Shown piece by piece: positions 22,096-45,618 of a DNA stretch of 47,457 nt. Source of the DNA: Chloroflexota bacterium (GTDB lineage: Bacteria; Chloroflexota; Dehalococcoidia; UBA2247; JAUWOP01); the NCBI GenBank assembly GCA_030612045.1, contig JAUWOP010000005.1:1-47457 (forward strand), read 5' to 3'. Within the stretch, counting starts at the first letter, position 1. Every line of letters starts with the position of its first letter. Below the pieces are notes generated by a model. That model was not told the origin of the DNA and did not search any database. It was given only the letters and a program-made list of their open reading frames with translations. Position numbers and translations under genes: made by a program.

Positions 22096-23523
22096 CTAAA
22101 GGATGCAGCTATGGCTGGTTTTGAGATTGAGCCTGCGATTGATAAAGCTTACTCCAAACAAGACTACTCCACAGATGACCACCCCTGCCAGATCCCAGTG
22201 ATTGGAACTTACTCCCAGTACCGTCACCTCAGTTCCTAGCTTGAACAGTATCTTACCTGCCAATCCTATTCCACCACCTACAATGAGAGCTGTCATTGCC
22301 CCTACGGCGGTTACCTTGAGTTCCCTCTTATAAAACCCTGCAATCACCGGCAAGACTAGCCCACAAGTATACACCGTGTAAGCAAACATCAGAGAAGCAA
22401 TGACCCCACCGAGAGCCAGGGCAATTGCCAGAGAGACGGCACCGAGGACCACAATTCCTACTCGTGTGAGAAGTATTGTGCTTTTCTCAGACATAGATGG
22501 GCGTAGGCGTCGGATAACATCTACATTCAAGATGGTGCTGGTGGTCAAGAGACAGGTGTCAGCCGAAGACATTACCGCCGCAAGTAAGGCAGCCAGGATT
22601 ATCCCGAAGACTACAGGAGGCAAGAGTTCCTGCATCACCAAAGGAAATGCCTGCTCCGACATTGCTTCGGGGAAAAGCACTTTAGCTCCCATACCAACGA
22701 AGACAATACACAGGGCAAGAGGCACGAGAATAAGAGCCACCCAAAGGACGGCATTTCGGGCAGTCTTCTCATCTCGGGCACAGAATAGCCGCGAATACAT
22801 ATCAGGTCCTACCACATAAGTAGCACCTACAATAACAAGGAAAGTAACCAGTTGCAGAATATCAAATTGTGAACTCAGCGGAAAGCCAAAATAAGAGGAA
22901 GGGAGAGATTCTGTCAGCCCCCCAACGCCACCTAGCTTTATCACTAATACAATGACACCAACAAGGATGCCACCACAGATAATTCCTGCTTGGACTGTGT
23001 CGGTGCGTAAGATAGAGTATTGCCCCCCAATAACCGTATAGGTAACAAATATTGCAGCAGAGATAACCATCCAGAGTGAGACACTGCCTATATCCAGAAC
23101 CCCCATTATTTTAGCTGCTGCCACTATTTGGCCAGCAATAATGCCGGTCCATGCTATCACGATAAGCAGAGAGGCAATCATCGCCACACGACTGTCATAC
23201 TGCTTCTCTACCATCTCAGGGAGGGTGTACAATCCGAACCGCCTCACCTTTCGAGCTAAGAAAATGCCTAGAATCAGTAGTCCTATACTTCCTGCTAGAA
23301 GCCACCACATACCGGTGAGCCCCTGGGTGAAGCCCAGTCCTGACACTCCAATTACTGCTGAACCACCTAAGATAGTAGCAAGGAGGGACCCTATAATAAG
23401 CAAGGTAGTGCCCTTACGGTGGGCAACGAAGAAGCCGTCGGCATCCCTCGCTTTTTTGCGGTTGATTACTCCTATGGCAATCATCCCAGCGAGATAGAGA
23501 ATAATGATAACGAGCTCCAGCAT
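22096..23523 (-). CDS. Sodium:solute symporter (SSS/SLC5-type) family transporter
   Basis: 475 aa, ~13 TM; DADGFFVAHRKGTTLLIIGSLLATILGGSAVIGVSGLGFTQGLTGMWW... and GPDMYSRLFCARDEKTARNAV. Confidence 0.88.
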   Translation of the reverse strand: MLELVIIILYLAGMIAIGVINRKKARDADGFFVAHRKGTTLLIIGSLLATILGGSAVIGVSGLGFTQGLTGMWWLLAGSIGLLILGIFLARKVRRFGLYTLPEMVEKQYDSRVAMIASLLIVIAWTGIIAGQIVAAAKIMGVLDIGSVSLWMVISAAIFVTYTVIGGQYSILRTDTVQAGIICGGILVGVIVLVIKLGGVGGLTESLPSSYFGFPLSSQFDILQLVTFLVIVGATYVVGPDMYSRLFCARDEKTARNAVLWVALILVPLALCIVFVGMGAKVLFPEAMSEQAFPLVMQELLPPVVFGIILAALLAAVMSSADTCLLTTSTILNVDVIRRLRPSMSEKSTILLTRVGIVVLGAVSLAIALALGGVIASLMFAYTVYTCGLVLPVIAGFYKRELKVTAVGAMTALIVGGGIGLAGKILFKLGTEVTVLGVSSNHWDLAGVVICGVVLFGVSFINRRLNLKTSHSCIL

Positions 23524-23571: not shown

Positions 23572-23931
23572 CGAAAATAGACTGATTCCTGCCTGCGCAG
23601 GAATGACATACTGTCGTGTCAAGCCTAAAGTGCCGCACTGATTATTTTAAATCCGCCAGTGCCATATAACATAGGGCAAATGGTCGCTATGCGTTTCACG
23701 GTTGACATGACAATACGCTATTTTCGGAATAAACACTCATGGGTGGCTGCCCACCAACGAACCATGAAAATAGGTTGTCATTGCGAGCCCTTTCTCTCTG
23801 TCATTGCGAGCGAAGCGAAGCAATCTCATCATCGCTCCCCCACCGAGATTGCTTCGGCACTGCGTGCCTCGCAATGACACATTATGGGGATGCTCCTCGC
23901 AATGACAGATGTGGGGGTCAGTCTATTTTCG
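23572..23931. mobile_element. Repeat block/MITE-like element bounded by CGAAAATAGACTGA/TCAGTCTATTTTCG
   Basis: 14-bp perfect inverted ends at 23572-23585 and 23918-23931; contains the inverted copy of 1048-1262; no clear TSD. Confidence 0.6.
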
Positions 23932-23985: not shown

Positions 23986-24017
23986 TTGTAAACCAATTTA
24001 GTAAGATATGTTGACAT
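23986..24017. promoter_or_regulatory. Candidate BirA operator (TTGTAAACC-N14-TGTTGACAT)
   Basis: Left half matches the remembered consensus TTGTAAACC exactly; right half 6/9 to GGTTTACAA; core spacing 16 as in the E. coli operator. Confidence 0.6.
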
Positions 24018-24032
24018 ATCACGCAAAAAACC

Positions 24033-25079
24033 TCACTCCATAACGCTCACGGATATATTGCCACCCATGGTAATACTCTCCTCTCCTGCTTCATTACTGA
24101 TAATCAGAGCTGCGCTTGTGTCTATACCTCTTGCTATCCCCATTTTTATGCCTTCTGGTGTGTTAGCTCTCACCTGCTTGCCTTGTTCATAGTGGATAGA
24201 AGACCATCTGGACTGAATTATCTCAAACTTATCTTTCTTGAGGAGATGATAGTTTTCCTCTAGCTGTTCGAGAGTGGTCTGGAGTAGCTTCAGCCGAGAC
24301 ACCTCAGTGCCTAGCTCCCTGGAGATGCTGGTAGCCTCTGTGGTGATATCACTAAGCTTAGAAGGGTCAAAATTGACATTCACACCCACACCCAAGATAA
24401 CATACCCTATAGAATCTAATTCTCCACCGAACTCTACCAGAACACCCCCTACCTTCCTGTCATGCAACATGACTTCGTTGGGCCACTTAGGCTGTGCCCC
24501 CAGTCCGGTTAATCTCCGAATACCTTGTGCTGCGGAAAGAGCACCGATGATGGCAAAGCGTGGCAGGTACTGTGGCAGGATACTATCACGGAGAATAACA
24601 GAGAAAAGCACATTCTGTTTTTCGTGACATTTATGCTTCTCTTCCGTAACACTTACACTTTTCCTAATACTCATATCTGGTGAGACCCATGCCTTACCAC
24701 AGCGTCCTTTCCCTCTAGTCTGCACCTCGCAGACAACTACAGTGCCTTCCCCTGCGCCACCTTCAGCCAGCTTTCTTGCTACATCATTAGTAGAGTCCAT
24801 AACAGGCTGATAATAGATTCGTTTACCTATAGTAGTTGTACGAAGACCGCTCTGTATCAGCAGTGGTAAAAGCTTCTCAGGACAGGAGACAAGGCGATAC
24901 CCTCGCTTGGGTACTGCCTCAATCTGGAATCCCTCATCCCGCAACAAATTAATCCTCTTCCACACTGCTGTGCGTGAGATGCCCATTTCCTGAGCTAAAT
25001 CCTCACCTGAGCAATAGTCCCCTGTTTCCTGAAGCGCCTCTATAATACTGATATTACTTTCCCCTTTTGACATTCTCAT
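24033..25079 (-). CDS. birA: Bifunctional biotin ligase/transcriptional repressor BirA
   Basis: N-terminal HTH YCSGEDLAQEMGISRTAVWKRINLLRDEGFQIEAVPKRGYRL and catalytic TRGKGRCGKAWVSP, WPNEVMLHDRKVGGVLVE. Confidence 0.95.
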   Translation of the reverse strand: MRMSKGESNISIIEALQETGDYCSGEDLAQEMGISRTAVWKRINLLRDEGFQIEAVPKRGYRLVSCPEKLLPLLIQSGLRTTTIGKRIYYQPVMDSTNDVARKLAEGGAGEGTVVVCEVQTRGKGRCGKAWVSPDMSIRKSVSVTEEKHKCHEKQNVLFSVILRDSILPQYLPRFAIIGALSAAQGIRRLTGLGAQPKWPNEVMLHDRKVGGVLVEFGGELDSIGYVILGVGVNVNFDPSKLSDITTEATSISRELGTEVSRLKLLQTTLEQLEENYHLLKKDKFEIIQSRWSSIHYEQGKQVRANTPEGIKMGIARGIDTSAALIISNEAGEESITMGGNISVSVME

Positions 25080-25112
25080 ATAATGGCATATTTTAACAGA
25101 GGGTCTCAGTAT

Positions 25113-25143
25113 GTGTCAACTGAAATATATGATATGTTGACAC
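25113..25143. promoter_or_regulatory. Candidate BirA operator in the birA promoter (GTGTCAAC-N15-GTTGACAC)
   Basis: Perfect 8-bp inverted half-sites at 25113-25120 and 25136-25143, 34 bp upstream of the birA start. Confidence 0.65.
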
Positions 25144-25257
25144 ATTTTCTCTGGCTGTTAATGCTTTCCCAAGCAGGAAGCAAAAGAAGGTTTCCCCTTG
25201 CCAAGAAATACCCCTTGATTTACACTTGGAAGGATTTAGAAAGGTAGGCGGGGGGAA

Positions 25258-42079: not shown

Positions 42080-42964
42080 CTAGCTCCGTGGATTATTTAG
42101 CTTGAGAGTTGATAGATATGTTTCAGCGGCATGAAAGGAGCTGCGCACCAGGGGTCCAGAAATAATGGAGGTGAAGCCCATCTCCTCCCCTATACTTTGA
42201 TATTCCTTAAACTCCCCAGGGGGGACATATCTGGCTACTTCGTGGTGCTTTAATGAAGGCTGCAAATATTGCCCTATAGTTAGAATATCACAACCGACCC
42301 GCCTGAGGTCAGTCATCACATCGATAACCTCTCTCTGCTCTTCACCTAATCCTAGCATAAGCCCGGATTTAGTCACAAGACTACTCCTGAGCAGTTTAGC
42401 CTTCCTTATCAGCTCCAACGAGCGCAGGTAGTTTGCTTCAGGGCGAACCTCAGGATAAAGACGGGGTGCCGTTTCTATATTGTGGTTAAGAACAGTCGGG
42501 GAAACACCTATTACAGCCTGCAATGCAGAGAGTGAGCCCCTAAAATCAGGGATTAGAATCTCGACTAAGATACTGAAATCATATCTGTGGATGGCATTGA
42601 TGGTTTGAACAAACTGGGAAGCGCCACCATCAGGAAGGTCGTCTCTTGTCACTGATGTAATGACTACATATCGGAGAGCTAATTTATCTACCGCTGCCAC
42701 GATATGCTGCGGCTCATCAGGGTCAATGGGCTGAGGTATTCCACTCTTTACGGCGCAGAAGGTGCAATTTCGAGTGCAAATATCCCCCAGAATCATAAAG
42801 GTGGCTGTGCCCCGGGCAAAGCATTCAGTACGGTTGGGACACCGTGCACTTTCACAAACAGTATGTAACTCCAGGTCTTGCATGAGCCTATTCATCCTGT
42901 TCAGTATAACAGGGTCAAGCGGGCTCAGTTTTAGCCATTCAGGGCGTCTAACATAGGCAGGCAT
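42080..42964 (-). CDS. lipA: Lipoyl synthase
   Basis: CESARCPNRTECFARGTATFMILGDICTRNCTFCAVKSG, LMLGLGEE, LTIGQYLQPS. Confidence 0.96.
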   Translation of the reverse strand: MPAYVRRPEWLKLSPLDPVILNRMNRLMQDLELHTVCESARCPNRTECFARGTATFMILGDICTRNCTFCAVKSGIPQPIDPDEPQHIVAAVDKLALRYVVITSVTRDDLPDGGASQFVQTINAIHRYDFSILVEILIPDFRGSLSALQAVIGVSPTVLNHNIETAPRLYPEVRPEANYLRSLELIRKAKLLRSSLVTKSGLMLGLGEEQREVIDVMTDLRRVGCDILTIGQYLQPSLKHHEVARYVPPGEFKEYQSIGEEMGFTSIISGPLVRSSFHAAETYLSTLKLNNPRS

Positions 42965-43026
42965 CTACTTATCTCCCTTCAGGTGGATAGGCTGGAAAAC
43001 GCAAGCTAATCTAACAGTCTTCAGCC

Positions 43027-43373
43027 ATAACTATTCAGCCACAGAGCACACCGAGAGCACAGAGAGGCTCTTTCGACAGGATTACAGGATTGGCAAGATT
43101 TTTTGTAACCGTTCACCCGTGTCATTGCGAGCGGAGCGAAGACGCAAGGCTAATCTCATCGTCTATCAAATCCCCCTTAGTCCCCCTTTTCTAAAGGGGG
43201 AAAAGAATGTAAGCCTCCCCCTTTTCTAAAGGGGGATTTAGGGGGATTGCTTCGTCGCTAACGCTCCTCGCAATGACATGAAAGTGGGTGAACGCTTACG
43301 ATTTTTTAGAGTTCCCGTTCATCTTGTTTTATCCTGTTATCCTGTCAAGAATTCAACCTCGGTGAACGCTTAC
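43027..43373. mobile_element. MITE-like element with 8-bp TSD CTTCAGCC, carrying a nested element
   Basis: Ends ATAACTATTCAGCC (43027) and GGTGAACGCTTAC (to 43373); CTTCAGCC at 43019-43026 and 43374-43381. Confidence 0.75.
43105..43299. mobile_element. Nested MITE-like element; termini GTAACCGTTCACCC/GGGTGAACGCTTAC; 8-bp TSD GATTTTTT
   Basis: GATTTTTT at 43097-43104 and 43300-43307; interior GTCATTGCGAG palindrome split by an AAATCCCCCTTAGTCCCCC palindrome (43168-43247). Confidence 0.8.
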
Positions 43374-43382
43374 CTTCAGCCT

Positions 43383-44114
43383 TCAGCCTATCCACCTAAA
43401 ATGAAGTAAGCTCTCTATGATATCTTTGACCTCCACAGGGTAACCCACTAATTCTGAGATTGAGGTCATTACTTTTCTGTTCTTTGTAGTGTCTACGCTA
43501 ATACCACATGGGTTTATGTATTCGAAATACCTCAGGTCAGGATTCACATTGAGAGCAAAGCCATGCGTAGTGATGTAGTGGCTAACATGTATACCTATAG
43601 AACAAATCTTCTCTTCACCTACCCACACACCCGGGTACTTTACGACCCGGTGGCCCTGGATATTAAAGGTGAGGAGTAGCTTGATAATGACCTCTTCTAA
43701 TCTCCAGATATATTCACGCACACCAGTATGATTGGGACGAAAAGGGCTGTTTTCTTTAAGGTTAAGGATGGGATAGCCTACAAGCTGTCCTGGACCGTGG
43801 TAGGTGATGCCGCCACCTCGATTGGTATGAAAGATAGAAATCCCCTCTTGGGACAATCTCTCTGGAGGAACAATTATGTCTTCCTCCCCTCTAAATCTTC
43901 CTAGTGTAAAAACTGACGGATGTTGCAGGAGCAGCACTACATCAGGAATCTTGCCCTCAGCTCTCGCCTGCGCCAATAATTGTTGTAGCTCTAAGGCATG
44001 CTCATATGGGATTACTCCCAGGTAATGAGCCACACATACCCTCGGAGATAAAGAGTTGGGATAGAGACTGCTCCACTCCGCTTCTCTATCTCTTGTCTCT
44101 GTCTCCATCTCCAT
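43383..44114 (-). CDS. lipB: Octanoyltransferase LipB
   Basis: LQHPSVFTLGRF, TNRGGGITYHGPGQLVGYPILNL, YPGVWVGEEKICSIGIHVSHYITTHGFALNVNPDLRYFEYINPCGI. Confidence 0.95.
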   Translation of the reverse strand: MEMETETRDREAEWSSLYPNSLSPRVCVAHYLGVIPYEHALELQQLLAQARAEGKIPDVVLLLQHPSVFTLGRFRGEEDIIVPPERLSQEGISIFHTNRGGGITYHGPGQLVGYPILNLKENSPFRPNHTGVREYIWRLEEVIIKLLLTFNIQGHRVVKYPGVWVGEEKICSIGIHVSHYITTHGFALNVNPDLRYFEYINPCGISVDTTKNRKVMTSISELVGYPVEVKDIIESLLHFRWIG

Positions 44115-44136
44115 CTCTTGTCTCTGTCTCCCATGT

Positions 44137-45618
44137 CTATACTCTTCGGAAATGGATTGAACCTTCTAGCTGCCCCATTGCTGTCTCAAGCACCGCCTCA
44201 GATAAAGTGGGATGGGCGTGGATAGTAAGGGCAATATCTCTGGCTGTTGCTCCTAGCTGTATTGCAAGTGCGCCTTCGGCGATAAGGTCACTGGCATGTG
44301 CTCCCATGATGTGCATTCCCAGAACTTTGCCATCCTCAGCATTACAAACCATCTTAACCATACCTGCTGTCTCATCCATCGCAACAGCACGGCCACAAGC
44401 GAGAAAGGGGAATTTGCTTACCTTACAAGGAATGCCGCTTCCTTTTACCTCCTTCTCAGTTAAACCAACACTGGCTATCTCGGGGTAGGTAAAGATGCAA
44501 TTAGGAACAGCCCGATAATCTGCTTGACGGGAATGGACAGTGCGAGAGCTACAAGAAAGGGCATTCTCGACGGCTATCTCGCCCTCATAGGAGGCAACAT
44601 GAGCTAGCATAGGCCTTTGTCTTTTGCCCAGAACATCTCCTATGGCATAAACACCATCAATATTTGTCTCAAGGCGCTCATTTGCTATAATAGCTTGCCC
44701 CTCCACCTTTATACCAAGCTGTGCTAGGTTCAGCCCCTCGGTATAAGGCTGCCTCCCCACAGCCACAAGAACTATCTGTCCGATAGCTTCCTGCTCATCT
44801 TTTCCCGTAGCGCTCACGCTCGGAGTATCCCAAACCACCTTGAGTCTGGAGTCTTTAGTCTTTAGTCCCCCTTCCCCCCGACTCTTGACTCTTGACTCTT
44901 GACTCTTGACTCCTTTAATAGCCTTAACTGCAGCTCCAACCTTAACTTCGATGCCTTGTCTGAGCAAGACCTGAGTAATTCGTTTGCTAATCTCTTCATC
45001 AACTGACCTCAGGAGGAGGGGAAGTTTCTCCACAATAGTAACCCTCGTTCCTAACCCATTAAAGATGCTGGCAAACTCAACACCTACATGACTTCCCCCG
45101 ATGACCACAAGGCTTTCCGGGAGCTCTTTCAACTCGAGAATCTCATCGGTGTTGAGTACTCCAGGCAGGTCTGAACCGGGGATAGGAAGTGGAATAGGCT
45201 CAGAACCGGTAGCAATAATAAGCTTCCTGGCTACTATCTCCTTATCATTCACCCTAACTAATTGTGAAGAGAGGATGTGAGCGATGCCCTTATGGACACT
45301 TATGTTGCCTGCTTTCATCAGTTGCTCGATGCCCAACGCTAATTTATTAACTACTTCGCTCTTACGAGCCATAATCTTGGGGAAGTTCGTATTGATATTG
45401 CCAATCTCTACGCCAAACTCGTTTGCCTTTCTTGCGTCGAGGAGCACCTCCACACTTTTAACCAGAGCCTTCGTGGGGATACAGCCTCGATTAAGACAGG
45501 TACCACCTAACCTATCCTTCTCAACCACAGCCACACTAGCCCCCAGGTGGGCAGCATGAATCGCTGCCACATAGCCACCGGGGCCACCTCCAATTATTAC
45601 TACATCCTTTTCATCCAT
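44137..45618 (-). CDS. lpdA: Dihydrolipoamide dehydrogenase
   Basis: VVIIGGGPGGYVAAIHAAHLGASVAVVEKDRLGGTCLNRGCIPTKAL; AIGDVLG; C-terminal HAHPTLSEAVLE. Confidence 0.95.
   Translation of the reverse strand: MDEKDVVIIGGGPGGYVAAIHAAHLGASVAVVEKDRLGGTCLNRGCIPTKALVKSVEVLLDARKANEFGVEIGNINTNFPKIMARKSEVVNKLALGIEQLMKAGNISVHKGIAHILSSQLVRVNDKEIVARKLIIATGSEPIPLPIPGSDLPGVLNTDEILELKELPESLVVIGGSHVGVEFASIFNGLGTRVTIVEKLPLLLRSVDEEISKRITQVLLRQGIEVKVGAAVKAIKGVKSQESRVKSRGEGGLKTKDSRLKVVWDTPSVSATGKDEQEAIGQIVLVAVGRQPYTEGLNLAQLGIKVEGQAIIANERLETNIDGVYAIGDVLGKRQRPMLAHVASYEGEIAVENALSCSSRTVHSRQADYRAVPNCIFTYPEIASVGLTEKEVKGSGIPCKVSKFPFLACGRAVAMDETAGMVKMVCNAEDGKVLGMHIMGAHASDLIAEGALAIQLGATARDIALTIHAHPTLSEAVLETAMGQLEGSIHFRRV

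Follow-up and report, generated by a model that had tools for sequence, protein, structure and literature searches.

The window analysed here is a 47,457-nt stretch of a Chloroflexota contig (JAUWOP010000005.1) from a host genome that was itself searched (1.62 Mb, 97% complete). The part of the window under study contains a symporter gene and birA, with the following features in and around them:

22096–23523, minus strand: SSS-family symporter, proposed Na+/biotin importer (PF00474 domain, SSS fold and genomic context)
23572–23931, no strand assigned: repeat element with 14-bp terminal inverted repeats, between the operator-like site and the symporter, with a partial copy at 1048–1278
23986–24017, no strand assigned: BirA-operator-like site before the symporter, TTGTAAACC-N14-TGTTGACAT, of a Desulfovibrio-like form, its pattern unique with its partner genome-wide
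24033–25079, minus strand: birA, biotin-protein ligase with an N-terminal HTH, regulatory type (domain matches and aligned BirAs)
25090–25119, minus strand: predicted birA promoter TTGACA-N18-TAAAAT (11/12 match), its −35 element inside the dyad of the next line
25111–25145, no strand assigned: predicted BirA operator of birA, perfect dyad ATGTGTCAAC-N15-GTTGACACAT in the birA/dapF intergenic region, a counterpart before birA being conserved in relatives

The sequence at 23986–24017 reads exactly TTGTAAACC-AATTTAGTAAGATA-TGTTGACAT and agrees with the consensus TTGTAAACC-N14/15-GGTTTACAA at nine of nine positions in the left arm and six of nine in the right, so that the BirA-operator-like sequence claimed in the original prediction is indeed present. 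It departs from the consensus in the same way as the Desulfovibrio BirA sites TTGTAAACC-N15-cGTTgACAg and TTGTAAACC-N15-aGTTgACAA (PMC545781, Table 1). The coordinates and strands also bear out the claimed linkage of birA and symporter and the position of the site between them: the two genes are co-directional on the minus strand, and the site follows birA and precedes the symporter, lying 15 bp from the birA end and 463 bp before the symporter start. The loose pattern TGTNNAC-N15/16-GTNNACA occurs in just two places of the 1.62-Mb genome, namely this site and the dyad upstream of birA, 1.1 kb away (the reversed control pattern gave one match in the same genome). A weight matrix trained solely on other genomes gives the site a score of 16.7, the second highest in the 47-kb window, the expectation for Markov sequence being 0.12 matches scoring at least 16 per 47.5 kb. 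By itself this score is moderately unusual; score and position together are more than that.

The dyad at 25111–25145, which the original prediction had overlooked, has 10-nt arms that are perfectly complementary; shuffling the sequence would not be expected to produce its core. On the minus strand, the two BirA-type sites start with ATGTGTCAACATATC and ATATGTCAACATATC. The dyad at birA, though perfect, scores low (9.3) in the matrix trained on other genomes because its outer bases differ. The BirA of the window combines a winged-helix N-terminus (HTH_11), a region aligned across 20 BirAs, with a ligase domain and is therefore assigned to the regulatory type. A bifunctional HTH BirA, a palindromic operator, the half-site and the spacing are thus held in common with known BirA regulons, i.e., the E. 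coli bio operon, the streptococcal birA-bioY pair and the delta-proteobacterial sites (PMC545781); in Streptococcus suis, the bioY site TTGTTAACC-N14-GGATAACAA has been tested by gel shift (PMC4877710). However, elsewhere it is the bio genes or bioY that are regulated, whereas here the regulated partner appears to be an SSS symporter, with a putative operator at birA itself.

The symporter carries an SSF (PF00474) domain and falls below every NCBIfam cut-off, with 110 of 515 bits for PutP, 89.9 against 328.05 bits for PanF and 140 of 184 bits for the superfamily model. The same families are matched by about 47–48 relatives of the symporter, with weak PanF homology in all of them. The PutP and ActP models both match the window symporter only weakly. 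The AlphaFold2 model of the symporter (pLDDT 93.5) finds SGLT2, SGLT1, CHT1 and the sialic acid symporter as fold matches, with TM scores of about 0.8–0.9 by query length, and the TM8 residues A316, S319 and S320, which we take by analogy with vSGLT to be a Na2-type site, are conserved. Membership of the SSS/SLC5 superfamily is thus seen in the SSF domain, the LeuT-type fold and the Na2-site residues.

The symporter had been proposed to be a transporter of the SMVT type. The shared superfamily stands, as does the likeness to SMVT (SLC5A6) in a proposed Na+-coupled import of biotin; a closer kinship does not. SMVT is absent from the 50 fold matches listed for the model, and in the sequence ranking it comes 13th of 16 PDB matches (26va, 59 bits), below SGLT1/2, vSGLT and the choline and sialic acid transporters, the best SGLT/vSGLT chains reaching 115–127 bits. 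Sequence rank and the fold matches listed rule out a kinship finer than the superfamily, SMVT being no closer to the symporter than are the other members of SLC5, and any functional likeness between the two would be convergence within the SSS. The transport of pantothenate and lipoate that the comparison with SMVT had implied finds no support. PanF, the sodium/pantothenate symporter, is likewise a bacterial SSS protein and shows weak homology, at 90 bits against its cut-off of 328; a cluster of lipA, lipB and a dihydrolipoyl dehydrogenase gene lies at 42080–45618 of the window (minus strand), and with lipA and lipB the host should therefore not depend on imported lipoate.

The host has a need for biotin. 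Its genome encodes three biotinyl-domain proteins. Named from sequence features, the first is a decarboxylase-type carrier that neighbours a sodium-pump-type beta subunit, the second resembles pyruvate carboxylase subunit B, and the third is a small carrier protein. The genome contains neither BioY nor BioB above cut-off, i.e., the host is a biotin auxotroph that has neither synthesis nor BioY. At locus L110 (839–2455), the gene for a biotinyl carrier (DAMKVQ) immediately precedes that for a sodium-pump-type decarboxylase beta subunit, and this decarboxylase is a possible source of a Na+ gradient.

Conservation was assessed by running a four-member symporter profile over GTDB genomes, which yielded 80 loci, mostly from Dehalococcoidia and other Chloroflexota MAGs. 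At 22 of these loci, the symporter is immediately preceded by a co-directional birA; such linked copies cluster on the symporter tree, where the linked state nevertheless needs about five changes. A blind scan of 643 kb of these loci for GTNNAC-N-GTNNAC dyads whose arms pair at 8 or more of 10 bases returned 22 strong dyads, 20 of which lie at a birA or symporter start (one genome being counted twice, as L002 and L058). The weight matrix and one manual reading (L049) give boxes for the remaining linked loci except L052, where birA is truncated by the contig end and the upstream region is absent; wherever the birA upstream region is present, a linked copy is therefore accompanied by a dyad at one or both of the two genes. 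The consensus is GTTAACC-N13-GGTTAAC. One relative (G031, locus L002) has the same layout as the window, with one box before birA and another directly before the symporter ATG, and a box precedes the symporter in L097 too.

In an even class sample of 344 Dehalococcoidia-like genomes, in which carriers were called at E ≤ 1e-60, the symporter is found in 34. In half of these carriers (17/34, the window genome and G031 included), birA is directly upstream on the same strand, and a BirA-type box is present in 17/17 of them, counting G155 and G383, whose variant boxes were scored under L027 and L040, taken as the same loci. Conservation of the site upstream of orthologous symporters, by which the original prediction was to be judged, thus holds for the birA-linked copies and not for the unlinked ones, at which the weight-matrix scan found no box above background. 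A strict operator search of 49 carrier genomes gave 12 matches, 10 of them at birA boxes and two with no related gene (L098 and L108); at this stringency, the predicted regulon seems to be the birA–symporter operon alone.

Because half of the orthologues are not adjacent to birA and have no box, and because one genome (G238) has BioY together with an unlinked copy, the members of the family may differ in substrate. In the unlinked clade L039, L066 and L072, a 3-oxoacyl-ACP synthase III-like (ketoacyl-ACP synthase III-like) gene lies directly upstream of the symporter, and the genome of L039 also has birA-bioY; this clade may have another substrate. Other unlinked symporters (L003/L043 in G007 and L004/L077 in G008) lie between cation-antiporter-like and MBL-fold hydrolase-like genes, and an MBL-fold gene is also found near several birA-linked symporters (L044, L058). 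In a genome of the same order that has no BioY (L005, G004 C3:21310–21552), about 81 symporter residues are left in a 128-aa frame, apparently the remnant of a decayed copy. A contig labelled Euryarchaeota UBA186 carries a relative of the birA-linked symporters (L075), reflecting either transfer or a binning error.

The distribution of BioY bears on the function of the symporter. BioY is present in 158 of the 344 class-sample genomes and true BioB in 35. Among the symporter carriers, BioY is found in one of 34 and BioB in none, whereas 157 of the 310 non-carriers have BioY (Fisher P = 7e-9, a value that overstates independence since the carriers share ancestry). BioY occurs in 0/17 of the birA-linked carriers (P = 1e-5) and 1/17 of the unlinked ones (P = 2e-4), these P values being indicative only because the MAGs are related by descent; the sole genome in the class sample with both symporter and BioY is G238, whose symporter copy is unlinked. 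BioY was above cut-off in one of 49 genomes that form a separate set, collected via the symporter loci. At least five families (f3, f22, f47, f51 and f64) contain both symporter genomes and BioY genomes, which argues for repeated replacement. In two BioY genomes (G167 and G238), bioY follows birA on the same strand, and birA is preceded by AATGTCAACC-N14-GGTTGACATT. In two others (G177 and G275), bioY also follows birA, whereas it is not adjacent to birA in eight and a further eight of the BioY genomes examined, birA-bioY being one arrangement among several. In this class, then, either bioY or the symporter can come after birA, with operators of one kind in front, and we regard this as the strongest evidence for the symporter filling the role of BioY.

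With a BirA operon and BirA-type sites, and with hosts that have neither biotin synthesis nor BioY, the symporter is very probably a bacterial biotin importer, Na+-coupled and belonging to the BirA regulon, which would replace the ECF transporter BioY in biotin auxotrophs. Comparative genomics strongly supports BirA control of the linked genes, and the birA linkage, the boxes in all 17 linked carriers and the near-exclusion with BioY and BioB make biotin the likely substrate, as the original prediction had proposed. We infer biotin from this context and Na+ coupling from the family, and both the ligand of BirA and its action as a repressor would follow known BirA biology. With ample biotin, BirA carrying biotinyl-AMP would dimerise on dyads of the GTTAACC-N13-GGTTAAC type (25111–25145 and 23986–24017) and keep both birA and the symporter gene from being transcribed. 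Under biotin shortage, the carboxylases would consume biotinyl-AMP, the block would lift, and import, driven by the Na+ gradient, would rise.

Other explanations give the symporter a different cargo or deny the regulation. It is unlikely that the symporter imports pantothenate in the manner of PanF, or some other nutrient, with BirA controlling it just as one element of a broader cofactor or carboxylase economy. PanF shows that a bacterial SSS protein can transport a vitamin, and all 48 relatives are weakly homologous to it; however, the PanF score is far below its cut-off, and both the near-exclusion with BioY and the exchange of bioY and symporter beside birA point specifically to biotin. 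The broad specificity of SMVT (PMC12121362) would allow a symporter that moves a biotin precursor or relative such as dethiobiotin or lipoate, as a multivitamin transporter does. However, precursors would be useless to the carriers, since BioB is absent from all 34 of them, and with lipA and lipB in the window and a symporter that stands no closer to SMVT than to the rest of SLC5, this reading is quite improbable. It is scarcely credible that the site matches by chance and stands beside these genes by accident: the matrix score is not extreme for a 47-kb window, but the two genome-wide pattern matches both flank birA, and the box is kept in every linked carrier. Pattern uniqueness and conservation rule out chance as the origin of the 23986 site.

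A further explanation accepts BirA-regulated biotin import for the linked copies and concerns this genome alone. The repeat element at 23572–23931, also overlooked in the original prediction, is MITE-like, with perfect 14-bp terminal inverted repeats (CGAAAATAGACTGA), and about 200 bp of it recur in inverted orientation at 1048–1278 with 92% identity. It may have uncoupled the symporter from the 23986 site, leaving the site as a relic and the symporter to another promoter, a possibility that is doubtful and yet deserves to be kept in view. The gap of 463 bp compares with about 0–60 bp in most linked relatives, the element carries a weak terminator-like stem, and the promoter scan found no good promoter at the 23986 site. 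However, the site is near consensus and the birA dyad perfect, which speaks of little decay, and read-through from birA could still reach the symporter. Position and co-direction thus make the control of the window's own symporter by this site, as originally proposed, plausible, but it is uncertain because the repeat element with its terminator-like stem intervenes.

With Na+-coupled biotin import under BirA as the preferred reading, the symporter can be set beside the known bacterial routes. Like bioY, which in G167 and G238 follows birA behind a BirA box, its gene can stand next to birA, and the job implied for it in auxotrophs is that of BioY. However, BioY is a small S component that works with an ECF module, whereas the symporter would be a secondary Na+ symporter of an unrelated family, and the two are nearly mutually exclusive. 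YigM of the enterobacteria is, like the proposed importer, a secondary transporter for biotin, and it belongs to a different protein family from the SSS symporter. BioY and YigM are the only bacterial biotin transporters named in a survey (PMC6593275). In the open-licence literature, to which the search was confined, no description was found of an SSS biotin transporter, a birA-panF link or biotin auxotrophy in Dehalococcoidia. The symporter probably represents a new, SLC5-like SSS family of BirA-controlled bacterial biotin transporters that has displaced BioY repeatedly among Chloroflexota, in some cases at the very position beside birA, and is functionally convergent with SMVT. If this is true, bacteria would have a third type of biotin transporter beside BioY and YigM, namely an SSS symporter of the BirA regulon, and a family now named just "sodium/solute symporter" would gain a function. 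It would also provide a bacterial system in which to compare Na+/biotin coupling with that of SMVT, structures of which are now in the PDB, and it would explain the biotin supply of a large group of uncultured biotin-auxotrophic Chloroflexota.
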